The notes under the pieces: model-generated
What the model was told of the DNA's origin: nothing
The model's database searches: none
What the model saw: the letters and a program-made list of their open reading frames with translations, nothing else
Source: Archangium violaceum
GTDB taxonomy: Bacteria > Myxococcota > Myxococcia > Myxococcales > Myxococcaceae
Direction of reading: 5' to 3'
Assembly: GCF_016859125.1 (NCBI RefSeq)
Contig: NZ_CP069338.1
Span: 10,977,501-11,041,500, forward strand
DNA length: 64,000 nt
Program-made: the position numbers and the translations under genes
In this document: piece after piece, positions 2,474 through 41,375 of the stretch
Layout: every line of letters begins with the position of its first letter
Position numbering within the stretch: position 1 is the first letter of the stretch

Positions 2474-4210
2474 TCAGTGGAACGCCCGGACCGCTTGGAT
2501 GAACAATGCGTTGTTGACGATTGCCCGCTTGGAGGTACTACCGGGACTCACCGGAGCGCCGAGCAGCGGCATACCGGAAGTCCCAGGCAGCACCACGAGT
2601 TCCATGCAGACTGGCACGACCTCATTGCCATTCAGGTGGGCTTCGGTGAAACGGCCATAGACACGCCCATTCCCGAAAATCAGCTTGCCACGGAAACGAG
2701 TCCGGCTCGAGACCTCCCCGTATTGACCAACGTTCTCGCCATCGACCTCCCCCTCCGAAAGAATGGCTTCTTCGGGAGGAATCATGCGATTGCTAGGACT
2801 GCCATTGTAGGGACGGATGAAGAATTGCAGAGTATCGCCCTCGCTGATGCCGAGTCTCGTGTGGCCCGACATGGACCCCGGCGGGCACGCCTCTGGCTTC
2901 GGCGGTGGACGCAGCGCCGGCCCTCCCCCCCCCGCGCAGGCGGAGGTCGCAACGAGGCCGGCGGAAAGCAGGGCACGGGTCTTCTGGGATTTCGTCATCT
3001 TGGGTTCCTCGCTCTTGTTCGTCGCGGTGGCGACGGGCGCGGGGGTGGGTGACTTCTTCGGTCCCGCGTCTTGCCCAACTTCTCCCGTCACCTTCGCTGG
3101 CGCCAGTTCTTGGCGAAGAGTGACCTGCTGAGGCGGGGGCAATGGAGCAGACTCCAGACGTTGGGTGGTAGGCGCCAGCAACGTGACCACCCCCAGCACC
3201 ACGGGGAGAACGAGCGCCGCGCGCCGCCACCCTCCGCGCCCCTGACGTTCGGGCACCACGGGCGCGGGGGCGGGCACTGGCGCCGGGCGCTCCTCGCGGC
3301 CGGGTTCGGGGAACAGCGGCACACGCCAGGACTTGTCGGCCTGGGCCCACACCTCGGACAGCGCCTCCGCGAGCGCCTTCGCATCCGCGTACCGGGCCCC
3401 GGGCTCCTTCTCCAGCATCCGCATGCACAGCTCACCCAGCGCCGGAGGCACGCGCGGGTTGAGCTCGTGCGGCGCCGGAGGGGTCTTCCCGAGGATGGCC
3501 TGCACCATGTCCGGGTCGTTCCCATCCCCGAAGGGAAGCCGGCGCGTCAGCAGGAGGTAGGTGACGACACCCACCGCCCACAGGTCGTCTCCTGGCGTGA
3601 ACGGATAGTGCTCGCCCTCCCACTCCCGCGCGAAGCGCCACACCTCGGGGCTGCGGTACTCGGGGGTGCCGGGCGGCATCCGTATCGTCAGCCGTTGCGC
3701 TCCCTCCAGGCCCGCCGCACCGAAGTCCACCAGCACCGGCTGCCCGTCCTCCTCGCGCACGACGATGTTGGCTTCCTTGATGTCCCGGTGCACGACGCCA
3801 GCCGCATGCACGTCCGCCAGGGTGAGGGCGAACGGCAGCAGCACCTGCATGACGAGCTCGAGCGCGGAGGGGTTCTCCTCCTTCGCCCACACATCCAGCG
3901 GACGGCCCTCGACGAGCTCCAGGGCCAGCACCAGGGAGCGCGGCTCCTCGTCCGGCCAGAAGCCGTACCCGTGGAAGCTCACCACGTTCGGGTGCCGCAT
4001 CAGGCGCAGCGCGTCCACTTCCCGGTTGCTCCGGGGCTCGATGCCCACCAGCTTGATGGCGAAGGGTCGCTCCCCCCGCCTCGCCCGGTACACCGAGCCG
4101 AAGCTGCCGGAGGCCAGTGGCCCCTCGATGATGAAACCGGCCACTTCCGCTCCGGGCTCCAACCGCCAGGGCAACCCACGTCCTGCCTGTCCACCGTCTT
4201 CGTCGAACAT
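2474..4210 (-). CDS. Transmembrane Ser/Thr protein kinase with C-terminal lipoprotein-like domain
   Basis: Eukaryote-like kinase domain at about residues 20-280, with glycine loop ASGSFGSVY, lysine in FAIKLVG, catalytic loop HRDIKEAN, DFG motif (DFGAAGLEG) and GTPEYRSPEV. A proline-rich linker, one membrane span (ALVLPVVLGVVTLLAP) and a second linker follow. The C-terminal ~190 residues begin with MTKSQKTRALLSAGLVATSAC, which looks exactly like a lipoprotein start read in frame, so the kinase is joined to what was probably a separate extracytoplasmic protein. Similar fused tails exist in related kinases, as far as I recall. The ATG at 4210 is chosen over the GTG at 4219 because GGAGG is 10 bp before the ATG but abuts the GTG. 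Overlaps no other gene; DUF2381 follows. Confidence 0.85.
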   Translation of the reverse strand: MFDEDGGQAGRGLPWRLEPGAEVAGFIIEGPLASGSFGSVYRARRGERPFAIKLVGIEPRSNREVDALRLMRHPNVVSFHGYGFWPDEEPRSLVLALELVEGRPLDVWAKEENPSALELVMQVLLPFALTLADVHAAGVVHRDIKEANIVVREEDGQPVLVDFGAAGLEGAQRLTIRMPPGTPEYRSPEVWRFAREWEGEHYPFTPGDDLWAVGVVTYLLLTRRLPFGDGNDPDMVQAILGKTPPAPHELNPRVPPALGELCMRMLEKEPGARYADAKALAEALSEVWAQADKSWRVPLFPEPGREERPAPVPAPAPVVPERQGRGGWRRAALVLPVVLGVVTLLAPTTQRLESAPLPPPQQVTLRQELAPAKVTGEVGQDAGPKKSPTPAPVATATNKSEEPKMTKSQKTRALLSAGLVATSACAGGGGPALRPPPKPEACPPGSMSGHTRLGISEGDTLQFFIRPYNGSPSNRMIPPEEAILSEGEVDGENVGQYGEVSSRTRFRGKLIFGNGRVYGRFTEAHLNGNEVVPVCMELVVLPGTSGMPLLGAPVSPGSTSKRAIVNNALFIQAVRAFH

Positions 4211-5682: not shown

Positions 5683-6972
5683 CTACTTCGCCTCGGCCTG
5701 CTTGCCCTGCATGCGCAGGATGGCGTCGTCGTAGACCTTCATGGGCCGGTTCTGCCGGGCCCACCAGAAGTTCTGCTCGGCCTGCTTCCAGTCGCCCTGG
5801 GCCTCGAAGATGCGCGCGATGTTGTAGTACGAGCTGGCCATGACCCCATTCTTCCCCGCCCCGCGCGCGAGCGCGATGGCCTTGCGGTTGGCCCAGATGG
5901 CGTTCGGGAAGTCGCCCACCTTCTGGTAGGACAGGCCCAGGTTGCTGTAGGCCTGCGCGTGCGTCGGGTCCTTGTCGATCGCCTGCTGGTAGAGCGTGAT
6001 GGACTCGCGGAGCTTGCCCTGGTGATAGAGCCGCTCGCCCTTCTTGTTGAGCGACTCGGAGCTCTCGGCCGCGGCCACCGTGCGGCGCGAGCGGGCTATC
6101 CCGGGGGCACGCGTAGCCGGCCGGCGGAGGCGTGAGGATCACGCGGCTCACGGTCTCCTCCTTCTCGAAGCGCAGGTTCAGCCACTCGCCCACGCCCTGG
6201 CCGGGGACGCCCTCGGCCCACACGGTGTCGGGTGAACCATCCACCACGTGGAGCGGCGCGTAACGGCTCTCCTCGCCCTGGAAGAAGTCCATGCGGGAGC
6301 TGGCGGTCACCCAGCTCGGCGCCTGGTACTGCGTCACGTCCAGCCCCGAGTCCTTGCCCACCTTCACCCGGACCTCCACCGCGCGGCGGGTGGCGTCATC
6401 CCGCGGCCGGGGGCTGCGGTAGCTGACCACGTAGTTCACCGCGACGCCGCCCGCGAGCGAGCGGACGATCTCCTGGAAATCTCCCGAGTCCTTGTCGAAG
6501 AAGGAGCCCCCCAGCCGGCCCGGCATCCAGTGTAGGAGACGAGCGCGAGCCGGAAGTCGAACCCGCTGTTGCCGAGGATGTCCGCGAACTGGCGGGAGCG
6601 CTCCACCAGGCCGGCGATCTCCTCGCTCATGCTGCCGGTCTGATCGAAGACGAAGACCACGTCCACCGGGGCCGTGGAGGAAGGGCCGTCCAGGCGCTGC
6701 TCCTCGAAGGAGACGATCTCCCCGGGGACCATGTCCTCGCGCAGGGAGAAGGCGTCTCGGGTGAGCCCGCCCACGCGCTTGCCCGTGACGCGATCGCGCA
6801 CGTTGACGGTCAGGGTGACGAACGGGAACTGGCTGGCAGGCAAGCACTCCTCTCGAGAGGATCCACCCGGCCACGGTCGAGCCTCTCTGTGCCTGGGAAT
6901 CGTGGCAGGGCGACCACATGGCGTGGAACGGAGACCACGACGGCACACCCCGTCCACAGGTGCGTTCGCCAC
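5683..6972 (-). pseudogene. Decayed VWA - discoidin-like - TPR protein gene
   Basis: Read on the minus strand, 6860-6520 gives the start of a von Willebrand A domain (VTLTVNVRDRVTGK, then VVFVFDQTGSMSEEIAG with a MIDAS DxTGS). It breaks after FRLALVSYT. The protein then resumes in another frame at GGSFFDKDSGDFQEIV, with most of the VWA domain missing, and runs through a discoidin-like stretch (WLNLRFEKEETVSRVILTPP). It shifts frame again in a run of five C near 6100 and ends with three TPR-like repeats (5683-6078: GERLYHQGKLRESITLYQQA, then AYSNLGLSYQKVGDF). An internal deletion plus two frame changes and no proper N-terminus indicate a pseudogene. The TPR part alone could still be translated from the ATG at 6078 (131 residues). 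Confidence 0.72.
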
Positions 6973-7071
6973 CGGGTGGAGTGCACGACCTGCCGTCGAG
7001 CCCCGCCATGTCCGACTCCGAGCGCCTCAGCAGTCCCTGCTCAACCCATCAAGGTCATCGGCGTCAGCGCT

Positions 7072-8250
7072 CTACGCCGCGCGCTTCTCCAGGATGCCCG
7101 AGCGGGCGATCCGCTCGACGGCCTCGGCCAACCGCTCCTCGCTCTGCACGAGCGCGATGCGCACATGGCCCTCACCCATGGCGCCGAAGCCACTGCCGGG
7201 CACCACGGTGACGCAGGCCTGCTCCAGCAGCGCCATGGCGAAGGCGAGGCTGGACTCGAAGCCGCGCGGCACGGGCGCCCAGCAGAACATGGTGGCCTTC
7301 GGCTTGGGGACGGCCCAGCCCAGGCGGTTGAGCCCGTCCACCAGCACGTCCCGGCGGCGCTGGTAGGTGGCGGCCATGTCGGCCACGCACTGTTGCGGCC
7401 CGGTGAGGGCGGCGACCGCGGCGAGCTGGATGGGACGGAAGAGCCCATAGTCGAGGTGGGCCTTCACCTCCGCCAGCAGGCCCAGGAGCCGCGCGTTGCC
7501 CACGGCGTAGGCGATGCGCGCCCCCGCCAGGTTGTACGTCTTGGACAGGGAGTTGAACTCCAGGCCCACCTCCCGCGCACCCGGAGTCTCCAGGAAGCTC
7601 GGCGGCCTGTATCCATCGAAGCTCAGCTCGCTGTAGGCGGCGTCATGCAGGATGACCGTGCCGTAGCGGCGCGCGAAGGCGACCGCCTGCTCGAAGAACC
7701 CGGGCCGGACGACGGCGGCCAGCGGGTTGCTCGGATAGTTGAGGATCAAGAGCCTGGCGCGCTGCTTGACGTCCTCCGGCAGGGACTCGAGATCCGGGAG
7801 GTACCCGAGCTCGGCCTTCAGGGGGACGGGGTGGAGCTCCGCGCCGGCCAGGACGGGACCGGCGGTGTAGATGGGGTAGCCCGGATCGGGCACCAGCACG
7901 AGATCGCCCGGATCCGTGAGCGCCTGGGTGATGTGGGCCAGGCCCTCCTGCGAGCCGATCAGCCCCAGCACCTCCGAGTCCGGGTTCAACGCCACGCCGA
8001 AGCGCCGCTGGTACCAGCCGGCCACCGCCTCGCGGAAGGCGGGCAGGTCCTTCATCGGATAGCCGTAGTTGCCGGGATCCCGGATGGCCTGGGCCATGGC
8101 CTCGGTGATGTGCGGAGCGGGAGGCAGGTCCGGACTACCGATGGACAGGTTGATGACATCGGCACCGGTGGCGAGCTTGCGCTTGCGCGCCTCGTCCATG
8201 GTGGTGAAGACGGCGGCGGCGAGCTTCTGGAGACGCTGGGGCTTGCTCAT
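7072..8250 (-). CDS. PLP-dependent class I/II aminotransferase (DapL-like)
   Basis: A 392-residue fold-type I aminotransferase. It has NLSIGSPDLPP near the N-terminus, the substrate/PLP region YGYPMKDLPAFREAV, NYPSNPLAA (the usual NPT/N region), DAAYSELSFDG (Asp and Tyr binding PLP) and the lysine loop SLSKTYNLAGAR (Schiff-base Lys). The pattern resembles LL-diaminopimelate aminotransferases and related succinyldiaminopimelate/alanine aminotransferases, but the exact substrate cannot be fixed from sequence. The start at 8250 (MSKPQRLQ) is chosen; an ATG two codons upstream is possible. Gaps on both sides exceed 130 bp, so it is probably monocistronic. Confidence 0.85.
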   Translation of the reverse strand: MSKPQRLQKLAAAVFTTMDEARKRKLATGADVINLSIGSPDLPPAPHITEAMAQAIRDPGNYGYPMKDLPAFREAVAGWYQRRFGVALNPDSEVLGLIGSQEGLAHITQALTDPGDLVLVPDPGYPIYTAGPVLAGAELHPVPLKAELGYLPDLESLPEDVKQRARLLILNYPSNPLAAVVRPGFFEQAVAFARRYGTVILHDAAYSELSFDGYRPPSFLETPGAREVGLEFNSLSKTYNLAGARIAYAVGNARLLGLLAEVKAHLDYGLFRPIQLAAVAALTGPQQCVADMAATYQRRRDVLVDGLNRLGWAVPKPKATMFCWAPVPRGFESSLAFAMALLEQACVTVVPGSGFGAMGEGHVRIALVQSEERLAEAVERIARSGILEKRAA

Positions 8251-8384
8251 GAGCATGGAACGAGGGCCCCTCTATCACGCCTGGGAAGCGCGAGGGGTAC
8301 CGTGCTCAACACCCCGAGGTGGGGCGATATGGGCCGGCCGTCAGCGGTGAAATCGTCTACCGAATCCCCAGGCGACCGGGCTCG

Positions 8385-8708
8385 CTAGGCCACGCGCAGC
8401 AACGCGACGCCCGCGAGGATGAGCAGGACCGCCACGACTCGTGCGAGCGAGAGCCCCTCGTGGAAGAGCGCGATGCTGAAGACGAGCGCCAGCGCCGCTT
8501 CCAATCCGAGCACCGCGATGTACACGACCCCCAGATCGGCGCGGCGCATCGCGAAGGCCTGGAGCAGGGCCCCGAGCAGGAACAAGGCCAGGAAGGCCAG
8601 GATGGGAAGCGGACGCGAGACTCCCGCCGAAAGCTTCATGAAAATCCCACCGACCGCGAAGCACGCGGCCGCGAGGAACATCAGGACCATCTCCTTGCCC
8701 GACACCAT
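8385..8708 (-). CDS. Small multidrug-resistance (SMR/EamA-like) four-helix membrane protein
   Basis: A 107-residue protein with four hydrophobic segments, the usual length of SMR/EmrE proteins. It contains FMKLSAG at the end of helix 1 and a YIAVLGLEAALALVFSIALFH segment matching the third helix region. The membrane-embedded glutamate of helix 1, needed for proton/drug coupling in EmrE, is not present: the aligned position in AACFAVGGIFMK is Phe or Ala. It may therefore act on a different solute or be a transport-related relative. I chose the ATG at 8708 (MVSGKEM) since the longer form adds a polar tail before helix 1. The histidine kinase lies upstream on the same strand, 69 bp away. Confidence 0.72.
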   Translation of the reverse strand: MVSGKEMVLMFLAAACFAVGGIFMKLSAGVSRPLPILAFLALFLLGALLQAFAMRRADLGVVYIAVLGLEAALALVFSIALFHEGLSLARVVAVLLILAGVALLRVA

Positions 8709-30042: not shown

Positions 30043-31503
30043 TCACGGGCTCTCCCAACGCCCCTCCACGCGGGCATCCGTGAAGGCGAGCCAGACCTCC
30101 TCCCGTCCGCCGACGAGCTCCCGCAGCTTGCGGTTGTGGAAGCCATTGAGCGGAACACCAAACCTGTACCCCGCCGGGCAGGACGCGGTGCCGCCGGACC
30201 AGGGCCCCGCGTTCGCCGACAGCACCCAGAAATCACCCGGGCAGGAGGATGGATCACACGTGGCGCCCGCCTTCACGCAGGCGTAGCGCTTCGACTTCGA
30301 GCAGAGGTCATCGTTCCAGCGCCCGTTGCTCCACATCGCGGCGCAGTCCTCGTCACCCGCGTTGTTGGGCTCGCCCTCGTCGAAGCTCCAGATGGCGCCC
30401 TTCAGGCCGCGGGCGAAGTAGGACTCACCATTCGGGGAATAGCCGGGGTCGGCCTCGGCCTGATCCATGGCGACGCTGAAGCCACACGCCATGACGGCCG
30501 CGACATCGATGCGATCGCTCAGGCCCGAGCCGCTGTAGCAATTCTCGAAATGGTCGCAGATCTGCCGCTCCTCGAACTGGGTGAACCGATGGGGCAACGG
30601 CTGTGGGAGCTGCGACGCATCCCGGATATCCTTCGAGCCACAGCGCGCGGCGTCGAACTGGGGCGCGAAGTTGGCGGCCCACGCCGGGTACTGGATGGAC
30701 AGGGTGTCCAGGCTGCCAGAGGCGAAGAACCAATCCCGCATGTTGCCGTCGGCACCGAGGTCGATGTTGTAGGCCGACCGGTCCTTGACCGCGATGACGA
30801 TGCGCCGGCCCAGTTGGACGAGCTCGCGCTGCGTCGGCCAACGGCTCGGGAAGAGGAGCTGCTTGTCACTCGGCCGGAAGATGAGGTCTCCCGAGGTGAG
30901 CGAGGTGCTCGCACCCGGCCGGAAGTCCTTGTCGAAGCGGTAGCGGAGCTCGTTGAAGAACTGCCGCTTGTAGGCCTCTCCCTCGTTGAAATAGTCCTCG
31001 AGGAGGATGAGGAGCACGTCCTCCTGGTGCTCCGGCGCGTTGATCCACCCGGCGATCTCCTCCTCGAGGGAGACACTCCACTGGCCGAAGGGCTCGCCCT
31101 CGTGGCTGAAGCAGACGTTCCAGCCGAACTGGCAGTCGCCCGTGGAGTTGCCATTGGCATCATCATAGACATCCAACATCAGGGTCCGGATGCCCATGTC
31201 CAGCTGCGCGGCGAGGCTCCGATGCTGGTTGGAGCGGAGGTAGTAACACAGGCCCGCGCCACACTTCGTGTAGACCGTGCTGACATGGGAGTTGTGGGTC
31301 CCGAGCCGCTGCCAGCGATCGAGCGGAACATCCCGCTGGAGGTCGCGCTGCTGGATGACGGCGGCCTTCGCGGCCCACGTATCCCTCAGCTCAATCTCCT
31401 GGCGCCAGACACCGGGTGATTCCGGCTCGGGAGCAACGGGCTCCTCCGCGCATGCGGCGAGGAACAGCAGGGACAGGAGACCGGGGATGCTCGCACGCGA
31501 CAC
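30043..31503 (-). CDS. Lipoprotein: PI-PLC-X-like phosphodiesterase fused to C-type lectin domain
   Basis: A 486-residue lipoprotein (LLSLLFLAAC lipobox). The N-terminal ~300 residues resemble phosphatidylinositol-specific phospholipase C X domains. They include the LGTHNSHVS catalytic-His motif, IRTLMLDVYDD, a second His in NVCFSHEGEPFG and IVIAVKDRSAYN. The C-terminal ~130 residues form a C-type-lectin-like fold (WSFDEGEPNNAGDEDCAAMW, WNDDLCSKSKRYACVK) with paired Cys. It probably binds glycans or lipids outside the cell. The GTG at 31503 is chosen: AAGGAGG is six bases upstream, whereas the ATG at 31551 would give no usable signal. Confidence 0.82.
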   Translation of the reverse strand: MSRASIPGLLSLLFLAACAEEPVAPEPESPGVWRQEIELRDTWAAKAAVIQQRDLQRDVPLDRWQRLGTHNSHVSTVYTKCGAGLCYYLRSNQHRSLAAQLDMGIRTLMLDVYDDANGNSTGDCQFGWNVCFSHEGEPFGQWSVSLEEEIAGWINAPEHQEDVLLILLEDYFNEGEAYKRQFFNELRYRFDKDFRPGASTSLTSGDLIFRPSDKQLLFPSRWPTQRELVQLGRRIVIAVKDRSAYNIDLGADGNMRDWFFASGSLDTLSIQYPAWAANFAPQFDAARCGSKDIRDASQLPQPLPHRFTQFEERQICDHFENCYSGSGLSDRIDVAAVMACGFSVAMDQAEADPGYSPNGESYFARGLKGAIWSFDEGEPNNAGDEDCAAMWSNGRWNDDLCSKSKRYACVKAGATCDPSSCPGDFWVLSANAGPWSGGTASCPAGYRFGVPLNGFHNRKLRELVGGREEVWLAFTDARVEGRWESP

Positions 31504-31615
31504 GGGAACCTCCTTCGAAATGAAAGCAGGAGTTGATATTCCCAGACCCATCCCGGATCAACCGTCATACCGCGCCTTCTCCTACTTCGAGGCCTGACAG
31601 GAATTTCCGTCCGCC

Positions 31616-32254
31616 CTACACTTCCTGAAAGAATTTGATCCCGGCGAGGACTCCTCCGGCGATGAGCAGCAGGCCCATGATCCGCACGCCCCAGGTCAAC
31701 ACGTGGCGGGGGAAGCGGCGCTCGTAGCGCCGGATCAGCCCGACGAACGCCAACTGCCAGCTGGCCACCCCCACGCCAGCGGCGGCACCGAAGGGAAGCG
31801 CGAGCAGCCCGGAGAAGGACACGAGCTGCAGCGAGTAGAGGAATGCCACCGCCGTGCTCCAGGTCGCCAGGAGGGTGGGATTCAGCGCGGCGATGGTGAA
31901 GCCGAGCAACAGCCCCTCGCGGTGCGGCTCCTGCTCGGGCTTCGCCTCGTCCCTGAGCTTCCACCGGGCGAAGTGCACCCCGAGCACGGTCAACACCACG
32001 GCGCTCAACCCATGAGACACCGGCAGGATGACGGGATACTTCGCGAGGAAGGTCGAGAACCCCCAGAAGGCCACGGCGGCATAGAGCGACACCGCCAACG
32101 CGGCCCCGAAGCCGATACGGAGGGCCGCGCCGTAGTGCCTCCGCACGCTCGTGGAGAACACCATCACCGCGATCGGGCCCGCCAGGGGCATGGAGCCGAT
32201 GAACCCGAACGCGAACGCCACGAGAGAGGTGATGAGCGTGTTCATCCGACTCAT
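31616..32254 (-). CDS. LysE-family translocator
   Basis: A 212-residue membrane protein with six hydrophobic segments. It has an amino-terminal signature GSMPLAGPIAVMVFSTSVRRHYGAALRIGFGAALA (32100-32210) matching the LysE/RhtB family, including the conserved G-P-I/A and a glycine-rich helix. Members export amino acids or small polar solutes. Start is uncertain between 32254 and 32245; neither has a good ribosome site. It faces away from the peptide gene, so its upstream region shares the 32255-32406 spacer. Confidence 0.8.
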   Translation of the reverse strand: MSRMNTLITSLVAFAFGFIGSMPLAGPIAVMVFSTSVRRHYGAALRIGFGAALAVSLYAAVAFWGFSTFLAKYPVILPVSHGLSAVVLTVLGVHFARWKLRDEAKPEQEPHREGLLLGFTIAALNPTLLATWSTAVAFLYSLQLVSFSGLLALPFGAAAGVGVASWQLAFVGLIRRYERRFPRHVLTWGVRIMGLLLIAGGVLAGIKFFQEV

Positions 32255-32306
32255 GGAGGTCACTGATGCGTGACTCGCGCAAGGACATTTCTGGCTGCTG
32301 GAGAGG
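32254..32306 (+). pseudogene. Decayed 5' copy of the small-peptide gene
   Basis: The ribosome site and first codons (GGAGG, then ATGCGTGACTCGCGCAAGGA) match those of the intact gene at 32407 almost base for base over about 45 nt. A one-base difference then throws the frame, and similarity fades. It lies upstream of the promoter at 32335, so it is not transcribed by that promoter. It indicates that the peptide gene was once tandemly repeated. Confidence 0.6.
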
Positions 32307-32334
32307 GTTCCCAGGGCCTGGCCCACCTGCCCGC

Positions 32335-32363
32335 TTGACGCCCCCGGCGCGGCTTTCTAGAAT
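32335..32363 (+). promoter_or_regulatory. Strong sigma-70-like promoter of the peptide operon
   Basis: -35 TTGACG and -10 TAGAAT are separated by 17 bp, each five of six to consensus. The expected start is near 32370, 37 nt before the peptide ATG. Such good boxes are rare in this GC-rich window. Confidence 0.7.
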
Positions 32364-32406
32364 TTCGAACCTTTCAGCATTACACCGCAGCAGGTGGAGG
32401 CCACGG

Positions 32407-32625
32407 ATGCGTTACTCGCGCAAGGATGTCTCGGAGCTGCTGGATGTGGTGAACGGGGGCCCTGACGTCTCCGGCTTCTCGACGTCGAACTTCTCCTCCA
32501 CCACGTACGTGCTGGTCGCCTCCGGCCCGGGCACGGTCTGGCAGGACATGTACAACTCGAGCCACCGGCTCTGCTCGGAAGACGGCGCCACCTCTCCCAC
32601 CGAGGACTGCGGCGGCCGCATCTGA
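32407..32625 (+). CDS. 72-residue peptide, possible precursor
   Basis: Starts with ATG eight bases after GGTGGAGG and behind a strong promoter. The N-terminal ~22 residues (MRYSRKDVSELLDVVNGG) are charged and helical, like a leader ending in a Gly-Gly-type site. The rest is Ser/Thr/Gly-rich and ends with WQDMYNSSHRLC, an acidic stretch, EDCGG and RI. No known family. Partial copies flank it (32254 and 32627). With a downstream ABC exporter and subtilase, it could be a RiPP or peptide-pheromone precursor; this is inference. Alternatively it is a small conserved regulator of the operon. Confidence 0.65.
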   Translation: MRYSRKDVSELLDVVNGGPDVSGFSTSNFSSTTYVLVASGPGTVWQDMYNSSHRLCSEDGATSPTEDCGGRI

Positions 32626-32626
32626 G

Positions 32627-32746
32627 CACGGTGGGACGGCCTGGCAGGACATCTACAACCCCAACCACCGCATCTGCGAGGACGGCACCGTTCCCGCTCC
32701 CGAGGATGCCCACCGGACCATCAACGCCGACTGCACCCTGCGCTGA
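32627..32746 (+). pseudogene. 3' copy of the peptide core region, out of frame
   Basis: Immediately after the peptide stop, another frame encodes GGTAWQDIYNPNHRICEDGT and ends at TGA 32744-32746 after INADCTLR. It matches the peptide's GTVWQDMYNSSHRLCSEDGA at both DNA and protein level. It lacks a leader and a start codon. It may be the second core of an ancestral longer precursor, cut by the stop at 32623, or a decayed tandem gene. Confidence 0.55.
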
Positions 32747-32791
32747 GGCGTCACGCCACTCGCTCGGAGCTCTCCGTCCCGCGGCACCGGA

Positions 32792-35776
32792 ATGAACACG
32801 AGACTCGTCCTCCTCCTCAACACCCACATGCCCCAGGTGCTGAGCGAGGGACCCCTCTTCGATGAGCCGGAGAACTGGCTCTTCGAGGCCCTGACGGAGA
32901 CGTACATCCCGCTCTTGCGGATGTTGTCGCGCTGGGAGCCCCAGCGCTTCTCCGGCACGCTGGTGATGTCCTTCACCCCGTGCCTGGTGCAGCAGCTCCT
33001 CGCCTGCGAGGAGCGCTACACGCGCTACCTGCAACTGCTGGGGCGCATCGCCACGCGCGAGCTGGAGCGCACCTCCCGGTTGGAGCTCTACAACCGCTAC
33101 GAGAAGTACCCCCAGCCGATCACCGACGAGGCGCTGCACCGGCTCCACCGCACCTCGGGCATGTACCTGCGGCGCGTGGAGGACAGTCTGGCCTTCCTTC
33201 GGGAGCACCGCCTGCGCGATGTGCTCGGCCAGCTCGGGCGCTCGCGGTTGCCGGGGGTGCAGCTCTGGACGTCCTCCCCTCAGCACAACTTCCTCCCCTT
33301 CTTCGAGCCCGCCACCGCGGATCGACTCGTGGCTCGGGGTGTCGAGGACTTCGAGGCCGTCTTCGGGCGAGAGCCGGACGGCTTCTGGCTGCCGGAGTGC
33401 GCCTTCCAGCCCGGGCTCGAGCGCCTGCTGACGCGCCACGGCGTCCGTCGCACCGCGCTGAGCCTGCATGGAATCGGCGCCTATCAGCCAAATGACCCCA
33501 GCGGGGTGTACCGCCACGGGGATCTGGAGGTGCTCGTCCACGACTACCGGATCGGCCTGCACCTGTGGAAGTCACCCGAGTCCACCTTCCCGGCGCATCC
33601 CGTCTACCGCGAGTTCTTCCGGGACGTGGGCTTCGACGTCGTGCCCGAATACTTCGACGAGCTCGGCGTGCCCGTGCCCGCCCACAAGCGGGGGCACGTG
33701 TGGACGGGTCTCAAGTACCACGCGGTGAGTGGCCGGGACGTGGGGCTGGGACACAAGGCGCTCTATGACGTGGAGGCGGCGCGCGCCCAGGTACCCCAGC
33801 ACGTGCGCGCGTTCTGGGAGCTGCTCGAGTCCCGCCGTGCGCTCGTCCAGGACGGGCAGACGTTCGTGCTGGCCTTCGACACCGAGCTGTTCGGTCACTG
33901 GTGGCACGAGGGCATCGAGTGGCTCGAGGGGGTGATGCAGCCCTCGCTGCCTCGTGAGGGCACCGTCACCGCCGCGCCATCGCCGCCGCCTCCCCTGCCG
34001 CGGCTCTACTATTCGACGTGGGGACGGGACTTCTACAGCGAGCACTGGCTGACGCCGGGCAACTGCTGGATGTACGCGCTCATCAAGCTCGTGGAGGCCC
34101 ACCTGCCGGAGCCGGTGGGCGAAGAGGCCCTGGAGCTGTGGCGCCGCTTCGAGGTCCTCGGCGGCAGCGACCTGCTCTTCATGATGCCGGATCCCACGCA
34201 GCGGGAGCGGGCTCGCTCGCTGTTCCTGGCCCGCTACGCGGACGTCGTCTCGCGCCTGCCCTCCTTCACGCCCGAGCTGCTCGCCGCCTTCCCGGTGGAC
34301 CCGTTCAAGTGTCTGCTCATCCACGTGATGAAGCCGGGAGACGGGTCCGCGCCGCTCTTCCAGCTTCGCCGGCTGTCGCGCGAGGACGAGCGCATGGAGC
34401 GGCGCCGGGAGATCACCCTCGAGCCCGAGGTGCTCGACGTCGAGGGCCTGCGCGTCTGCTTCCAGTACTTCCTGCTGCACCCGCAGGGCCGCTACGCGCT
34501 GCGCGTGGAGGGCTCGGAGCGCCAGCACACCTTCCAGATGCCGGACTACGGCGTGCCCCTGCTCATCGCCCAGGACGCTCGCGCCTACCCCAAGTACGAC
34601 CCGGAGGTGCTCTACCGGAAGCTGGGGGAGATCTGGGAGGGGGACGAGCGTCTGCCGATCAAGACGGCGCCCTCGCAGCGCAGCCGCCATGCGTATACGC
34701 GCGAGGCGCTGATGGGAGTGCTCGAGGGTCGGCGGGCCGCGGTCTTCAAGTACAACAAGGAAGGGTACGCGCTGCTGCGCTTCCGCGAGCAGGCCCTGGC
34801 CCCACCCGTGGTCGTCTTCGACGACACCGTCTCGCTCCAGGACGCGGGCACGTACATCCAGGCCGGGGCGATGTCCGTGCCGGTCAGCAGCGATCCGGCG
34901 GACATCACCCGGCATGACTTCGGCGCGGTGATCTTCACCTGCTCGCTCAACTTCGAGTCCGAGGTGCCTCACGTCCGCGCGTTGCTGGAGGTGGCCACGC
35001 GCCGGAAGCTGCCGGTGGTCTCGCTGTACGACGACATCCTGTATTACGACCTGTTCGACGGGCTGGACGTGGACCCGGCGCTCTTCTACCGGGTGGCCGT
35101 GCCCGAGCAGGACGCGCTGGCCTCCCAGGCCCCGGTGGACTACCGGCCGCGCAACCTGCTGGGCGTCTTCGGCACGGACACGGTGCAGGGCAAGTTCACC
35201 ACGCAGCTCTACCTGCGCGAGGCACTGGCCCGGCACGTGCGCGTGCGCCACCACTCCACGGAGCCGACGGGCATCCTGCTGGGCGCGGACACCGGCTACT
35301 CGCGCGTGTTGCGCGTGGAGCCCGCCCAACGTCTGGCGTTCGAGCGGCGGCTCATGTCGGAGCTGGCCGAGGGCTGCGAGCTGGTCATCACCGGCGGGCA
35401 GAACGGGCTGCTCTACACGCCGCCCGGAGGTGATCGCCGGGCCAACGCCTCCACCCTCATCTACGAGACGTTCCTGCCTCGGCTGGTGGTGTTGACCGTC
35501 TCCGTGGACACCCAGGCGGAGGATGTGCTGGCGACGCGTGAGTACCTGGAGACGCTGGCCCGGGAGCACGGTGTGCCCTGCACGGTGGTGGGTCTGGCGA
35601 TGATGGGCGGGCGCAAGCTCCACGGCAGCCGGTGGACCGAGACCTGGTTCCTGGGCGTCCGGGACGAGGTGCTGGAGGGAGCGCGACACCGGCTGGAGCA
35701 GCACACCGGCCTGCGTGTCCATGCCATCCCCGAGGAAGCGGACGCGCTCGCTCGGGCCGTGCTCTCGCACCTGTGA
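32792..35776 (+). CDS. GH57-like glycosidase/branching-enzyme domain fused to DUF1611-like P-loop domain
   Basis: A 994-residue cytosolic protein. Residues 1-580 resemble GH57 branching enzymes: ENWLFEALTETYIPLL, the nucleophile motif GFWLPECAF (Glu202) and the acid/base motif AFDTELFGHWW (Asp363). The terminal 210 residues match the C-terminal DUF1611 P-loop domain: GTDTVQGKFT at 794-803 in the GTDxxxGKxT position, then TGILLGAD and a late GLAMMGGRKL. The middle (about 580-785) resembles the N-terminal DUF1611 half (VPVVSLYDDILYYD, FGAVIFTCSL). The fusion is unusual. It may glycosylate, ligate or otherwise alter a substrate using ATP; the target is unknown. Its stop overlaps the next gene's ATG as TGATG. 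Confidence 0.8.
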   Translation: MNTRLVLLLNTHMPQVLSEGPLFDEPENWLFEALTETYIPLLRMLSRWEPQRFSGTLVMSFTPCLVQQLLACEERYTRYLQLLGRIATRELERTSRLELYNRYEKYPQPITDEALHRLHRTSGMYLRRVEDSLAFLREHRLRDVLGQLGRSRLPGVQLWTSSPQHNFLPFFEPATADRLVARGVEDFEAVFGREPDGFWLPECAFQPGLERLLTRHGVRRTALSLHGIGAYQPNDPSGVYRHGDLEVLVHDYRIGLHLWKSPESTFPAHPVYREFFRDVGFDVVPEYFDELGVPVPAHKRGHVWTGLKYHAVSGRDVGLGHKALYDVEAARAQVPQHVRAFWELLESRRALVQDGQTFVLAFDTELFGHWWHEGIEWLEGVMQPSLPREGTVTAAPSPPPPLPRLYYSTWGRDFYSEHWLTPGNCWMYALIKLVEAHLPEPVGEEALELWRRFEVLGGSDLLFMMPDPTQRERARSLFLARYADVVSRLPSFTPELLAAFPVDPFKCLLIHVMKPGDGSAPLFQLRRLSREDERMERRREITLEPEVLDVEGLRVCFQYFLLHPQGRYALRVEGSERQHTFQMPDYGVPLLIAQDARAYPKYDPEVLYRKLGEIWEGDERLPIKTAPSQRSRHAYTREALMGVLEGRRAAVFKYNKEGYALLRFREQALAPPVVVFDDTVSLQDAGTYIQAGAMSVPVSSDPADITRHDFGAVIFTCSLNFESEVPHVRALLEVATRRKLPVVSLYDDILYYDLFDGLDVDPALFYRVAVPEQDALASQAPVDYRPRNLLGVFGTDTVQGKFTTQLYLREALARHVRVRHHSTEPTGILLGADTGYSRVLRVEPAQRLAFERRLMSELAEGCELVITGGQNGLLYTPPGGDRRANASTLIYETFLPRLVVLTVSVDTQAEDVLATREYLETLAREHGVPCTVVGLAMMGGRKLHGSRWTETWFLGVRDEVLEGARHRLEQHTGLRVHAIPEEADALARAVLSHL

Positions 35777-37575
35777 TGGAGAAGGTGGGCGCGATGCAGG
35801 AGTCCTCTCCCGGGCTGGGGCAGTCGGCGCGGTACCTCGCCGCGCTCGTGCGGTTGCTGCGCCCCGCCTGGGGAGCGCTGGCCCGTGGCGCGATGCTCGG
35901 CCCCGTCATCACCCTCCTCAGTCTGGTCCCCCCCTACCTCACCAAGCTGTTGTTCGACCATGTCGCCGCCACGCGGGACGTGGGCCTGCTCGAGGTCCTG
36001 GTGGCGGGCATCTTCGCGGCGGCCCTGGCATCCGTCTTCGCGGAGACGCTGCTGGGCTACTACTCGTCCTACTTGAACATCAAGTTGGAGAGCTCCGCAG
36101 TCCTCTACCTCTTCAACCACGTGCAGCACCTGCCGGACCGCTTCTTCACCCAGCGGCAGGTGGGGGAGATCACCAGCCGCTTCGATGACGCGAAGGCCGG
36201 CCTGGCGCTCGTGGTGGGACTGGTGCGGCTCGTCTTCTCGCAGGGCGCCTACCTGCTGATCATCCCCTTCACGTTGGCTTCCCTCCACTGGAAGCTGGCG
36301 ATGGCGGCGCTCGCCACTCTGCCGCTCGTCGTGCTGGTGCCGCTCGTCATCGGGCGCGCCATGGGCCGGGCGTGGCAGGACGTGGTGGGTGCGTACACGT
36401 CGATCAACGCCCTCCAGATGGAGGTCTTGCGGCAGAGCCGCACGAGCAAGGTGCTGGCGCTCGAGCCGCTCATGTATCAGCGCGCGGCGGAGCAGATGAG
36501 GTCGTTGCTGCGGGCGCACCTGCGGGCGCACGGGGTGGATGGACTGCTCCGGCTGTTCGAGCGCGCGGTGGAGGCGGCCCAGACCGCGCTCTTCACGTGG
36601 TTGGGCTGGCGGCTCATCCTCGCGGGAGAGATGAGCCTCGGTGGCTACATGGCCTTCGTCGCCTATGCCGCGTATCTCCGCGGTCCGGTGATCGAGGTCG
36701 TCTCCTTCGTCACCAGCATGCAGCGGAGTGGCATCCACCTGCGGCGCTTCTTCGAGTACCTGGAGGAGCCGCCGGAGCAGGAGCCCTCGAAGGCCCTGGG
36801 TCCACCGGCCCCCATCTCGAGGCGGCTGCGCGGTGGAGTGGAGCTGGAGGGCGTGTCGTTCGCGTACTCGCCCGGCGAGGAGGTGCTGCGCGAGGTGAGC
36901 GCGCGCATCGAGCCCGGAGCGGTGGTGACCATCGTCGGGCCGAGCGGCTCGGGGAAGACGACGCTGGCGCGGCTGCTGACCCGGCTGGAGGAGCCCGGCC
37001 GTGGGCGCGTGCTGTACGACGGACGCGACGCACGTGCGCTGGAGCTCTCCGAGTTGCGCCGGCAGCTCGCCGTGGTGTGGCAGGACGTGGAGCTGTTCCA
37101 CGGCACCCTGCGCGAGAACCTCACCCTGGGCCTTCCGCCCGTGCCAGCAGAGGAAGTCGAGCGCGTGGTACGGCTGTGCGGGCTGGAGCCGCTCGTCGCC
37201 TCGCTGCCAAAGGGCTACGACACCCCGGTGGCCGAGGCGGGAGCGAGCATCTCCGGTGGACAGCGGCAACGCCTGGCGCTAGCTCGGGCGGTGCTGCGCG
37301 ACGCGCCAGTGCTTCTGCTGGACGAGGCCACCTCCCAGCTCGACGTGGAGACCGAGGCCGCCGTCGTCCGCGGGCTTCTCGCACGGGCTCGAGAGCGGAG
37401 ACAGACGGTGCTGTTCATCACCCATCGGCTGGCCAACGCGCCGCTGGCCGATGAGGTGTGGATGCTCGCCGGAGGCCAGCTGGTGGGCCAGGGGTCTCAT
37501 CCGGAGCTGCTGGCGCGCTGTGTCCCCTACCAGCGTCTGTATCGCGCGGGCGTGGGTGAGGCGGATGCCGCCTAG
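35776..37575 (+). CDS. ABC exporter (fused membrane and ATPase domains)
   Basis: A 599-residue half-transporter: N-terminal ABC_membrane region with six helices (about 20-320) and a C-terminal ATPase. Visible motifs are GPSGSGKTTLARLL (Walker A), the Q loop in WQDVELF, ISGGQRQRLALARA (signature), VLLLDEATSQLD (Walker B) and THRLA (H loop). It belongs with lipid/peptide/bacteriocin exporters without an N-terminal C39 peptidase, so any processing would need another enzyme, such as the subtilase downstream. It overlaps the previous gene by one base and precedes the small membrane protein by 24 bp. Confidence 0.9.
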   Translation: MEKVGAMQESSPGLGQSARYLAALVRLLRPAWGALARGAMLGPVITLLSLVPPYLTKLLFDHVAATRDVGLLEVLVAGIFAAALASVFAETLLGYYSSYLNIKLESSAVLYLFNHVQHLPDRFFTQRQVGEITSRFDDAKAGLALVVGLVRLVFSQGAYLLIIPFTLASLHWKLAMAALATLPLVVLVPLVIGRAMGRAWQDVVGAYTSINALQMEVLRQSRTSKVLALEPLMYQRAAEQMRSLLRAHLRAHGVDGLLRLFERAVEAAQTALFTWLGWRLILAGEMSLGGYMAFVAYAAYLRGPVIEVVSFVTSMQRSGIHLRRFFEYLEEPPEQEPSKALGPPAPISRRLRGGVELEGVSFAYSPGEEVLREVSARIEPGAVVTIVGPSGSGKTTLARLLTRLEEPGRGRVLYDGRDARALELSELRRQLAVVWQDVELFHGTLRENLTLGLPPVPAEEVERVVRLCGLEPLVASLPKGYDTPVAEAGASISGGQRQRLALARAVLRDAPVLLLDEATSQLDVETEAAVVRGLLARARERRQTVLFITHRLANAPLADEVWMLAGGQLVGQGSHPELLARCVPYQRLYRAGVGEADAA

Positions 37576-37599: not shown

Positions 37600-37890
37600 A
37601 TGGCGAACGAGCCCCCGCGCCTCATCGAGCTTCCGAGCCCCCCTCGGCTTCCGTTGTTGGAGGATCCCGATCATCCGGGCGTCTTCGTCGTGAAGCGGAT
37701 CGGCATGCTCACGGCCCTGCTCGTCGGAGGGCTCTGCACGGCGCTGCTCCTCGCGGGCTCTTTCGTCCGGCTGGACGTGCCCGTCCAGGCAGAGGGCGCG
37801 ACGCGGATGGAGTCGATGACCCTGGGCGCCTATGTGGCTCGGCAGCTCGGGCTGTGGACACCCCTGGGGTCCGAAGGAGCGGCCCCATGA
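37600..37890 (+). CDS. Small single-span membrane protein, HlyD-N-terminus-like
   Basis: A 96-residue protein with a Pro-rich cytosolic start (LIELPSPPRLPLLEDPDHPG), one membrane span (MLTALLVGGLCTALLLAG) and a short outer stretch beginning SFVRLDVPVQAEGATR. The last part resembles the residues just after the span of HlyD-type adaptor proteins, but the long coiled and barrel regions are absent. It may be a minimal adaptor for the ABC exporter or a truncated one. Its stop and the subtilase start overlap as ATGA. Confidence 0.65.
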   Translation: MANEPPRLIELPSPPRLPLLEDPDHPGVFVVKRIGMLTALLVGGLCTALLLAGSFVRLDVPVQAEGATRMESMTLGAYVARQLGLWTPLGSEGAAP

Positions 37891-38606
37891 AGGTGGGGAT
37901 CATCGACAGCGGTGTGGAGGTGAAGTTCCTGCGCGAGCATGCGCTCGGCCTCGCGGGTGGGGCTCGCTTCACGCTCGACCTGGACGCGCAGGTGCTGGAG
38001 ACGCGCAGCTATGACCGGGACGAGCTGGAGGCGTGGCGGGACGGAGCGCGAGAGTTGGACCTGCAAGACGAGCACGGACACGGCACCGCCGTCCTGAGCA
38101 TCCTCTATGACCGGGTCCGCCCCTGGCCGGACGTCGAGCTCTACGTGGCACGCATCTTCGACCAGGAGGTGCGTGGGTACTCGCTGTGCCTCGTGGAGGC
38201 CTTGCGGTGGATGCTCGACGAGGTGGGCGTGGAGTTGCTCAACCTGAGCCTCGGCACGACCCATCGTGCGCTGGAAGCTCCGATGCGCGAGGTGATCGAT
38301 CGCGCGGTGGCGCGGGGGGCCATCATCGCTTGCGCCGCGGGTGGAGTGCCCACGCTGCCCGCGCAGTTGGAGTCGGTGGTGGCGGTGGGGGATCCAACGC
38401 TCATGGACAGGGTTGGCTCCGAGGTGAAGGTCGACCATGTCGTGCGGGAGCGCGGGGTGAAGCTCTACATGGGAGGAAGCTGGTGCGAGGCGCCCATGAC
38501 GACCAGCTTCGCCTGCGCGGTGGCAGTGGCCGGCGTCTTGCGTGACGGCTGCCCACCCGGTTGGCGACGCAAGCTCCCTCTCCCTCTGGGAGAGGGCGGG
38601 GGGTGA
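37887..38606 (+). CDS. Small subtilisin-family (S8) serine protease
   Basis: A 239-residue protein without signal peptide. The catalytic triad is Asp7 (GIIDSGV), His65 (DEHGHGTAV) and Ser207 (PMTTSFACA), with the usual order and spacing. The oxyanion Asn region is altered (ACAAGGVP in place of AAGN). At 239 residues it is shorter than most subtilases. The last 10 residues (PLPLGEGGG region) are encoded by an inverted repeat that runs into the gene. The protein is coupled to the preceding gene. It is a candidate processing protease for the peptide. Confidence 0.82.
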   Translation: MKVGIIDSGVEVKFLREHALGLAGGARFTLDLDAQVLETRSYDRDELEAWRDGARELDLQDEHGHGTAVLSILYDRVRPWPDVELYVARIFDQEVRGYSLCLVEALRWMLDEVGVELLNLSLGTTHRALEAPMREVIDRAVARGAIIACAAGGVPTLPAQLESVVAVGDPTLMDRVGSEVKVDHVVRERGVKLYMGGSWCEAPMTTSFACAVAVAGVLRDGCPPGWRRKLPLPLGEGGG

Positions 38607-38729: not shown

Positions 38730-41375
38730 TCACGGAGGTACGGATCCGGCCCCCAGCGGGATGTCCCCCACGTCGAGCACTTCGCCCTCCTTCAGCTTCA
38801 CCGGACGGCTCGCGCGTACCCTGGACTGCCCCCCGATGATGACCAGGATTCGTTCGCCCGCGCGCACGCCCCCGACGAAGAACCGTCCATCGGCGCTCGT
38901 CCCGTCGTCGGGCTTCAAGGGCACCTCCCCTTCGATGAAGACGAGCACACCGGCCAGAGGGGCCTTCGTGGTCGCATCCACCACCCGCCCCTGCACGACC
39001 GCCGTGGCCCGCAGGGGAATCTCCACCTCGGCCGTCGAACCGGTGCCGGGGGAGACCAGGGCCTCGCCGCTCGAGCCGTCCGCCGTCCGCACCACCAGCT
39101 TCAGGGGCTCGGCCGGTACTTCCCTCAGCTCGAAGCGATCTCCCGGGAACTCCCAGGGGCCATGGCCCTGGGGCAGGAATCCCTCCTGGACCTGGAGGCC
39201 GAGGGTGAAGCCCCTCACGGGCTCGCCAGTCCCCACCACCCTGCCCCGGATCGAAGCCGCGGGCCGCAGCTTCACCACCACCTCCTGCTCGCCGGGCTTC
39301 ACGCGCCGCACCTCGCTCGCGCGCCCGCCATTGCGCGCGCTCACATTCAGGCCGCGCGTGGCCGCGTCCGCCACACGCGGGGCACCGATGGCGAAACGGC
39401 CCTCGTCATCCGCGGGAGCCATCATCCACGGAACACCCCGGCCATCCCCGGAGGCCAGGGTGACGAAGGCCCCTGGAGAGGGTGTGCCGTCCGGCTCGAG
39501 GACGATGCCCCGGATCTCATTCGCGCCGTGCTTCTCCTCCCAGGTCAGCTCGACCCGCACCGTCCTCCCCTCCTCCACCTGGACCTGTTGCTGTCCGCCG
39601 GAGCCGAGGCCCCGGCGCGCCGTGAGCAGCAGACCGTAGGTTCCCGGCGGGAGCTCCATCCGGAAGCTTCCATTCGTCCCGACCTCGACCCGGCCGATGT
39701 CCGGCGCGCCGGAGCCGAGCCCCCCCTGCGCGAGGGCCGTCACATCCAGCGGCTCGGAGGGGAGCGGACCCCGGATCGCTCGCACCACGCCCTCCACGGT
39801 GCCCGTCCCCTCCAGCGTGAAGTCCACCCGGGCCGTGCCAATCTCCATCACCTCCACTGGCTGGCGGACCCCCAGCGTCGAGCCCTCCCGGCGGGCGGTG
39901 AGATACATGCGGCCCACGGCGAGTCCCTGGAGCCGGTAGTGTCCCCGTGCATCGGTACGAGACTCGACCGGAGAGGTGTCCGCGCCACCGTCCCAACGGT
40001 TGACGCCCATCACCCGCGCGCCCGGCACCGGCCGTCCGGCCCCATCCCGCACGAAGCCCTCCACCGAGCCGGTGCCCTCGAGCACGAGACTGACGGGGAA
40101 GCGCTCGCCCGAGGTCACCGTCAGTCCGCGCCGCAGCGTCGGCGAGAAGCCCGAGGCGCTCACCCTCACGTCGTAGCTGCCAGGAGCGAGCCCACCCACC
40201 GAGAAGTGGCCCTCGCCGTCCGTGAGGGCGCGGCCGGAGTCCCCTGAGCCACCCTGGGGGCCGACCTCGACGCGGGCGCCCACCACCGGGCCCCCCGAGG
40301 CCCGCTCCACCACGCGGCCCTCCAGCACCCCCCCCTGGCCGAGCCGTATCCGCACGTCGCGCACCGTCCTTCCCGCGTTCACGACGACCGGCGAGTCCAG
40401 CGAGCCCGCTTCCTCGCCGCGCCGCGCGGAGAGGGTGTGAGCTCCGGGCTCCACCTCGACGGAAAAGCCCCCCTCCGCGCCGGTGGTGACCACCTGGGCC
40501 GGGTCTCCACGCACCATCACCTCGGCGTCCGCCGCCGGGCGGCCCCGCGCGTCCACGACGAAACCCTCGATGACGCCCGCCCCCCGGAGCGACACCGTCA
40601 GCGGCCCCTCCGCGGGCACCTCCACGTGGCTCAGTACCGCTCGCGCGTGCCCTGGCGTCCGGGCCTCCAGCAGGTAGCCACCGGGGGCGAGCCCGTCCAC
40701 CTGGAAGTTCCCCCTTTCGTCACTCGTGACGTACACGCGCTCCTCGGCGGGAGCTTCGGCGCGCGGCCAGGGCTCCTGCTGGCGACCGTGGGCCGTGAAG
40801 ACGAGCTCCACCAACGGCAGCGGTTCATTCGTGCCGTGCACCACCGTGTGGCCGGAAAGGGAGTGGCCTTTCTCCAGCATGAGACGCAGGGTCGTCCGCG
40901 CCTCTCCATGGGGACGCACCACGTCGCGCAGCAGGGGTGCATGGCCCCTGGCGCGCACCGCCACCAGATAGGCGCCAGGCCGTGCCGCGAGCCGGACACG
41001 TCCTCGCTCATCCGTGGTGCCAGAGCCCGCCAGGCGCCAGGCGTTGTCCCCGCGGAGGGGCGCTCCCTCCGCGTGCCAGTAGAGCCGGACGTTGGCGCCG
41101 GGCCACGGCCGCTCGCCCGCGAGCACCTCCACCTCCAGAATCCCGTCCACTCCGGTGGGGGCCTGGGCCAGGGACGGCGTGCCGCTCGCGTTCGCATGGC
41201 CCCGCGCGCCCACCTGCCCGGGCTCCTCCGGCTGCGACACCGGCCCCCGCGGCCGCGCGGCCGAGACTTCCCCGGCATTGCCCTCCGTGGCACGTGGCCC
41301 TCCGGAATGTGAGAACCAGAGAAGCGCGAGTCCCACTCCCACCAGGACCATTGCCACGATGATGCGCCTGCGCAT
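38730..41375 (-). CDS. Large secreted protein with carboxypeptidase-regulatory-like repeats
   Basis: An 881-residue protein with an N-terminal membrane anchor or signal (IIVAMVLVGVGLALLWFSH). Repeats of ~85 residues with the pattern V-x-G-x-V-x-D/E...G-x-V...A-x-V-x2-G...T-D-x2-G-x-F/Y-x-V...G-x-Y-x-L, e.g. GRPVPGARVMGVNRWDGG and TDARGHYRLQGLAVGRMYL, are typical of CarboxypepD_reg beta-sandwich domains. At least eight copies are visible. Long myxobacterial proteins of this type are predicted extracellular or adhesive; no catalytic site is seen. Single gene, separated from its neighbours by the repeat element. Confidence 0.8.
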   Translation of the reverse strand: MRRRIIVAMVLVGVGLALLWFSHSGGPRATEGNAGEVSAARPRGPVSQPEEPGQVGARGHANASGTPSLAQAPTGVDGILEVEVLAGERPWPGANVRLYWHAEGAPLRGDNAWRLAGSGTTDERGRVRLAARPGAYLVAVRARGHAPLLRDVVRPHGEARTTLRLMLEKGHSLSGHTVVHGTNEPLPLVELVFTAHGRQQEPWPRAEAPAEERVYVTSDERGNFQVDGLAPGGYLLEARTPGHARAVLSHVEVPAEGPLTVSLRGAGVIEGFVVDARGRPAADAEVMVRGDPAQVVTTGAEGGFSVEVEPGAHTLSARRGEEAGSLDSPVVVNAGRTVRDVRIRLGQGGVLEGRVVERASGGPVVGARVEVGPQGGSGDSGRALTDGEGHFSVGGLAPGSYDVRVSASGFSPTLRRGLTVTSGERFPVSLVLEGTGSVEGFVRDGAGRPVPGARVMGVNRWDGGADTSPVESRTDARGHYRLQGLAVGRMYLTARREGSTLGVRQPVEVMEIGTARVDFTLEGTGTVEGVVRAIRGPLPSEPLDVTALAQGGLGSGAPDIGRVEVGTNGSFRMELPPGTYGLLLTARRGLGSGGQQQVQVEEGRTVRVELTWEEKHGANEIRGIVLEPDGTPSPGAFVTLASGDGRGVPWMMAPADDEGRFAIGAPRVADAATRGLNVSARNGGRASEVRRVKPGEQEVVVKLRPAASIRGRVVGTGEPVRGFTLGLQVQEGFLPQGHGPWEFPGDRFELREVPAEPLKLVVRTADGSSGEALVSPGTGSTAEVEIPLRATAVVQGRVVDATTKAPLAGVLVFIEGEVPLKPDDGTSADGRFFVGGVRAGERILVIIGGQSRVRASRPVKLKEGEVLDVGDIPLGAGSVPP

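Follow-up and report, generated by a model that had tools for sequence, protein, structure and literature searches.

A probable shrunken array of precursor-like peptide genes beside a GH57-DUF1611 fusion, an ABC exporter and a subtilisin-like protease in Archangium violaceum

Results

Genes and features of the locus

The window, by which we mean the whole stretch of 64,000 nucleotides analysed here, comes from an Archangium violaceum genome that consists of a single contig of 12.68 Mb and belongs to the same family as Corallococcus. The following features lie in it.

32254..32302, + strand: 5' relic, what is left of a lost precursor gene (ribosome site, first ~12 leader codons); one gap of 1 nt when aligned to the live gene
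32335..32363, + strand: sigma-70-like promoter TTGACG-17-TAGAAT, 43 nt 5' of the live ATG; a similar site in 16/17 operons
32396..32400, + strand: putative ribosome-binding site GGAGG of the live gene, assigned from the sequence
32407..32625, + strand: live precursor-like peptide gene, type C, 72 aa; two Cys and two ED motifs in the core, which follows the leader MRYSRKDVSELLDVVNGGPDV
32633..32746, + strand: 3' relic, type D, remnant of a sister gene truncated at its N terminus, with core and stop codon kept; lies in frame +1 with respect to the live gene
32792..35776, + strand: fusion protein, 994 aa, GH57 (alpha-glucan branching-like) N-terminal and DUF1611/DgcN-like C-terminal
35773..37575, + strand: ABC exporter, membrane domain plus ATPase; start codon picked by reading the sequence
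37600..37890, + strand: small protein of 96 aa, conserved in the operon (51-67% identity in 7 other loci); one membrane-like segment recognised by eye
37887..38606, + strand: subtilisin-like protease (S8) whose closest NCBIfam model is QhpE, with a score under the cut-off of that model

The operon runs in the order peptide gene(s), GH57-DUF1611 fusion, ABC exporter, small membrane-like protein and S8 protease, and GH57, DUF1611, ABC exporter and S8 protease were the only domains matched in it. In Pfam the fusion matched PF03065 (1.1e-12) and PF07755 (2e-5, just below the cut-off with 24.6 of 25 bits); its PDB matches were 2b5d and 2g0t. Its GH57 motifs WLPECA and DTELFGHWW, which we take to have a catalytic role, were found in 18/18 genomes, and a GH57 activity is predicted from them. 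The DUF1611 P-loop pattern was found in 17 of the 18 fusions and missed in the one at L091; the structure prediction of the C-terminal part, built on four aligned sequences only, reached a pLDDT of 38.6. No C39 peptidase domain appeared in the Pfam list of the exporter, and the 96-aa protein had no match in Pfam or NCBIfam. The best NCBIfam match of the protease was QhpE (1.4e-21; NF049966, 76.8 bits against a cut-off of 165). Catalytic Asp, His and Ser motifs were present in 30/30 proteases, the Ser motif of 11 stand-alone proteases (see below) being read by eye. Among the Pfam and NCBIfam matches of the operon, which for the exporter are the best 25 of 203 NCBIfam families, no class-defining RiPP modifying enzyme was found.

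The full-length fusion was present in 18 of the 195 genomes searched in the phylum; some match to it occurred in 133/195, nearly all the others being to the GH57 part alone. The protease was found in the same 18 genomes, 2010-2133 nt from the fusion in all 16 that carry both on one contig, and the exporter and small protein were present in 8/8 operons checked of the 18. A leader-peptide search picked out these 18 genomes again, at E<=1e-11; six leader matches with E values of 0.002-0.035 were set aside, and the two loci inspected (L152, L153) show long metabolic genes. The peptide profile had matches in 20/195 genomes, two of them weak (G094 and G096, E 0.005-0.008) and set aside, and the family is present in 15/16 Corallococcus genomes (genus g5).

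Upstream of the operon, a LysE-type translocator gene (31616-32245, opposite strand) adjoins the side of the 5' relic and is itself preceded by a gene (30043-31551) for a protein with weak PI-PLC-type and C-type lectin matches. After the operon, and convergent with it, lies the gene of an 881-aa protein (38730-41375), a relative of which stands beside the operon in one genome of the window's genus (G064), in one of another genus (G093) and in Corallococcus, as read by eye; relatives of this protein occur in all six genomes of the window's genus. Outside the 18 genomes, G139 carries at a contig end (L116, 3277-5907) a DUF1611-like gene with 54% identity, followed by a 47% identical ABC exporter, distantly related to the pair of the operon. 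No protease was recognised on that contig, whose end cuts the DUF1611-like gene, which may be part of a fusion.

Promoter and start of the peptide gene

The peptide had no match in Pfam or NCBIfam and nothing from PHROGs or PADLOC, and its profile found nothing better than E 0.24 among solved structures (PDB). Its predicted structure had a mean pLDDT of 58.7, the leader lying mostly below 50 and the core blocks reaching up to 70. The promoter was the sole sigma-70-like site detected in 32200-32800. When the best-scoring site of each of 17 operons was compared, a TTG...TA...T site stood 41-47 nt before the first peptide ATG in all of them except the G093 operon, with a spacer of 17 in 15 operons and of 18 in G064 and with 6-10 of 12 consensus matches, counts that stand without a shuffle control. 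From the position of the promoter the live gene is taken as the first gene of the operon, and the 5' relic would lie outside the transcript.

The ATG of the 5' relic (32266), which has a GGAGG of its own, is in frame with the live gene, and the frame is open throughout, giving a mechanical 119-aa ORF (32266-32625) that fuses relic and live gene. We nevertheless consider translation of a 119-aa protein with this N-terminal extension highly improbable: the promoter lies downstream of that ATG, and the 38 other copies of the gene, whose starts were set by script at the nearest MR or MK, align from the second ATG and hold no counterpart of the extension. Promoter and alignment with relatives thus support 32407 as the true start of a predicted 72-aa product. 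Automatic annotation may choose the wrong ATG here.

The two flanking copies

A preliminary description of this DNA had claimed that the peptide gene is flanked by two partial copies, that the 5' flank repeats the ribosome site and first codons while the 3' flank repeats the core in another frame, and that the promoter sits between the 5' copy and the live gene. Base-by-base alignment of the segments together with a shuffle control bore out both copies, and the promoter lies where it had been placed. On the 5' side, the alignment of 32254-32302 with 32395-32444 has 50 columns, of which 42 match and 7 do not, the remaining one being a 1-nt gap (score 58; dinucleotide shuffles, mean 17.7, maximum 34). 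The segment takes in the ribosome site GGAGG, the start codon ATG at 32266 and some 12 codons of the leader, and it is best matched by the G064 gene, in its leader (44 nt, 82%, E 2.5e-6). On the 3' side, 32633-32709 aligned with 32530-32610 (score 56; shuffle mean 19.3, maximum 38), with an ungapped core of 69 nt at 74% identity.

The +1 frame of the 3' relic reads HGGTAWQDIYNPNHRICEDGTVPAPEDAHRTINADCTLR-stop, with its own TGA at 32744-32746 and no internal stop over 39 codons. The relic matched the intact G093 gene better than the live gene, with 84% identity over 118 nt that take in the stop codon (E 8e-32). A tree of 45 short rows and 73 columns, in which the relic is half filled, placed these two together (99/98 support), and in it the live gene stood beside 12 type-C Corallococcus genes (92/90, below the firm-support mark). 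Such similarities might be expected by chance or from composition in short segments of G+C-rich DNA; we give this reading practically no credence, since the score of neither flank was reached in 2000 dinucleotide shuffles (0/2000 each). The similarity of the 3' relic to an intact gene of another genome, which runs as far as the stop codon, counts against it too, and for this relic the reading is refuted. As far as can be read from the sequence, both segments are probably pseudogene relics, with homology to an intact gene, the start or leader lost and no evident route to translation.

The dN/dS of the 3' relic against two intact genes was 0.40 and 0.51 (pN/pS 0.21/0.43 and 0.14/0.25), values that include a contribution from selection on the intact partner gene and that fit a recent truncation. 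With 39 open codons and these values, the 3' relic is therefore either recent or not wholly dead. One could imagine that it is expressed as a C-terminal extension of the live gene, through +1 frameshifting or readthrough, to give a two-core product. Its frame is indeed open from 32453 to its stop (bounded 5' by a TGA at 32450-32452), with the core motifs kept. We find this very hard to uphold, however, since no slippery site was recognised by eye at the junction CGC-ATC-TGA, the frame holds no ATG, GTG or TTG after 32450, and a comparable layout was absent from the 16 other upstream regions searched; the joining by frameshift that the preliminary description had put forward for checking found no support.

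These upstream regions, 18 of about 1.5 kb each (one just 85 nt long), were searched with intact genes masked. Besides the two relics of the window they yielded a weak match of 39 nt in G064 (79%, E 0.001), which was set aside, with no comparable relic in the 16 other searchable regions; among the genomes sampled here, only the window's has such relics. The DNA homology of the LysE gene to genome G065 stops at the LysE start codon (window 32246), 8 nt from the 5' relic, and its end may mark a rearrangement break. An empty site sought through the flanking LysE and 881-aa genes was not found, both genes being far apart in G065.

Tandem copies in related genomes

We counted intact copies within about 1.5 kb upstream of the gene of the 994-aa fusion. 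There were 39, the window's included, in 17 of the 18 operons, at 1-3 per operon and 29-57 nt apart; the eighteenth operon is broken by a contig end, and the genome concerned carries three copies elsewhere, on a different contig. Corallococcus genomes hold 1-3 intact tandem copies at the same place, and in G064 and G093 the gene is single and stands 6 and 4 nt, respectively, upstream of the fusion gene. The core pattern CS?ED[GS] and at least two ED motifs were present in 39/39 copies and exactly two cysteines in 38/39; the constant pair of cysteines suggests a cross-link or a disulfide. Homologous copies thus stand side by side in related genomes across 17 operons, as in a tandem precursor array. 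The precursor-like gene with tandem relatives in variable states that had been proposed from the window is therefore recovered, as 39 intact copies and two relics, and the further copies that were to be looked for in related genomes exist. Because in the relatives as many as three intact copies accompany this protease and exporter, the locus is probably a shrunken array of precursor-peptide genes and a member of a little-known peptide gene family.

Selection and a possible hybrid gene

Compared with 12 type-C Corallococcus orthologues, the window's gene had a dN/dS of 0.26-0.39 in full length; its first 22 codons gave 0.30-0.63 and the remaining ones 0.20-0.36, these pairs being short genes with few changes. 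The remainder lay below the leader in 11/12 pairs. A group-A comparison (three genes picked by text pattern) was left out of these results. The live type C gene is, as judged from these ratios, kept under purifying selection, and its core is not diversifying, so that the rapid diversification expected of the live copy found no support. Divergence among copy types is much larger than divergence inside a type.

The gene of G064 shows a different pattern on either side of its GTAWQ codons. Before them, 33 sites agree with type C and 4 with type D; from them on, 6 agree with type C and 10 with type D (Fisher p 2.3e-4), and another 9 fit neither type. The split was placed at the 5' end of the window's 3' relic, the pattern had been noticed by eye before testing, the sites are linked, and type D is represented by one full gene. 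These counts are no more than suggestive of a hybrid with a C leader and a D core, switching where the 3' relic begins. A C-D tandem that underwent deletion between its repeats could produce such a gene, and an older C gene with ancestral core states would look similar.

Second protease loci and orphan peptide genes

A second protease, 53-57% identical, was found in 12 Corallococcus genomes. These proteases stand alone, and each (12/12) has an adjoining gene for a peptide that shares the leader pattern but differs in its core. The peptides are 62-64 aa long and the gap to the protease is 24-160 nt in the nine loci measured, adjacency in the remaining three being taken from coordinates. This regular pairing indicates a tie between protease and peptide closer than one through a shared operon. 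At L042, for instance, a KFTS-type leader peptide gene (8307-8498) directly precedes a stand-alone QhpE-like protease gene (8523 onward), and the same type of locus recurs at L043-L045, L050-L053 and L055. In six stand-alone loci read by eye, neither an ABC exporter nor a fusion gene was recognised.

Peptide genes were also found by themselves. The window's own genome carries an intact orphan paralogue (L038, 7738-7977; C1:3518737) with 50% identity over 67 aa, and neither operon partner was recognised by eye beside it or beside the orphans at L041 and L049 in Corallococcus. The link between peptide and operon is consequently not obligatory. Upstream of the L038 orphan lies a near-identical pair of genes of no assigned function (2511-3317 and 6397-7524).

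Discussion

We asked which known system the locus resembles. In the Qhp system, QhpE cleaves a 28-residue leader before transport through QhpF (PMC7876137). The operon of the window is similar to qhp (QhpC precursor, QhpE protease, QhpF exporter) in that a small leader-bearing polypeptide is encoded together with a small S8 protease and an ABC exporter. In contrast to qhp, however, the protease scores below the QhpE cut-off, the peptide has no match to the QHNDH gamma-subunit family in Pfam, NCBIfam or PDB, and no dehydrogenase genes were recognised in the operon, which has the GH57-DUF1611 fusion instead. The best match of the window's genome to the radical SAM enzyme QhpD (TIGR03906) scored 49.3 bits against a cut-off of 453, and 12/14 control genomes also matched it, all below the cut-off. 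Because three defining features were tested and none was found, this is not a Qhp system; at best, the operon may work like the Qhp maturation system, by analogy.

The layout also recalls RiPP precursors with S8 leader peptidases (NisP, ElxP, AmyP), in which leader and core go with a subtilisin-like protease and a transporter (PMC10885120); unlike in those systems, no lanthipeptide or other class-defining enzyme was found among the Pfam and NCBIfam matches of the operon. Across copy types, the small genes have a conserved leader and a more variable core and lie beside processing genes, as expected for RiPP precursors, whereas inside type C the reverse holds and the core is more conserved than the leader in 11/12 pairs. 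By its sequence, the locus would best be placed among RiPP-like peptide arrays, as a variant in which a RiPP-class enzyme was not found. Corallotide, a graspetide of Corallococcus, shares the host genus of the relatives and has Asp/Glu-containing cores. Its operon encodes a graspetide synthetase and a 2OG oxygenase (PMC13097080), and neither enzyme was found here, with no ATP-grasp match in the fusion, exporter or protease. The two-cysteine peptides of the window carry a leader of the form xxELLxxVxGG, which we take to resemble the double-glycine leaders of C39 peptidase transporter systems. Unlike in such leaders, Gly17 may be followed by G, S, T, N or D, the glycine is missing from the G093 gene, and the transporter has no C39 domain in its Pfam list.

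We propose that the window probably holds a shrunken precursor array heading a dedicated processing and export operon. The 72-aa product would carry an N-terminal leader of about 20-25 residues, removed by the QhpE-like protease, with cleavage taking place in the cytoplasm by analogy with QhpC, QhpE and QhpF. The GH57-DUF1611 fusion may tailor the two-cysteine core, which the ABC transporter would then export. The basis for this proposal is anatomy, conservation and co-occurrence, all read from sequence. In its favour, fusion, protease and leader peptides co-occur in the same 18 of 195 genomes. Against it count the protease score (76.8 bits, where the QhpE cut-off is 165), the lack of a recognised peptide-modifying enzyme in the operon, the orphan peptide copies, and the six stand-alone protease loci in which no exporter was recognised.

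The main rival is that the peptides stay in the cell, as small regulators or as subunits of a GH57-DUF1611 enzyme of carbohydrate metabolism, with the protease controlling their level. It would explain why the first enzyme of the operon has a GH57 domain with both signature motifs in 18/18 genomes, why the live-type core is under purifying selection like a structural protein, and why no exporter was recognised beside the orphan copies. We nonetheless regard it as rather unlikely, since an ABC exporter and a small membrane-like protein accompany the peptides in 8/8 operons checked of 18, 12/12 stand-alone proteases pair with a leader peptide while the full-length fusion occurs once per genome, at the operon, and the layout is that of a leader plus a variable core. 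A further-reaching and rather unlikely version of the export proposal would make these peptides an undescribed class of exported products, with two cysteines, two ED motifs and cores tailored by the fusion, whose arrays evolve by core swapping at GTxWQ. Should the export proposal be true, it would add a peptide maturation and export operon combining a QhpE-like protease, an exporter and a GH57-DUF1611 fusion, a combination that we did not find described together among the papers listed. This operon was likewise undescribed in titles and abstract starts among the open-access literature matches listed. That leader peptides co-occur with a carbohydrate-type enzyme domain poses a question open to testing, namely how such an enzyme acts on a peptide.

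The relics themselves are ordinary gene turnover, and the surrounding operon is the more interesting find. Since both fragments look untranslatable, we read them as relics of copy turnover, in which copies would have been duplicated, recombined and deleted. A type D gene, stripped of leader and start, would have survived as its core half directly after the stop of the live type C gene, and a third copy as its leader start upstream of the promoter. The window would then show the kind of C-D tandem able to give rise to a hybrid like that of G064. If this reading holds, the operons form a graded series for the loss and exchange of copies, from three intact copies in many Corallococcus genomes, through one in G064 and G093, to one with two relics in the window.
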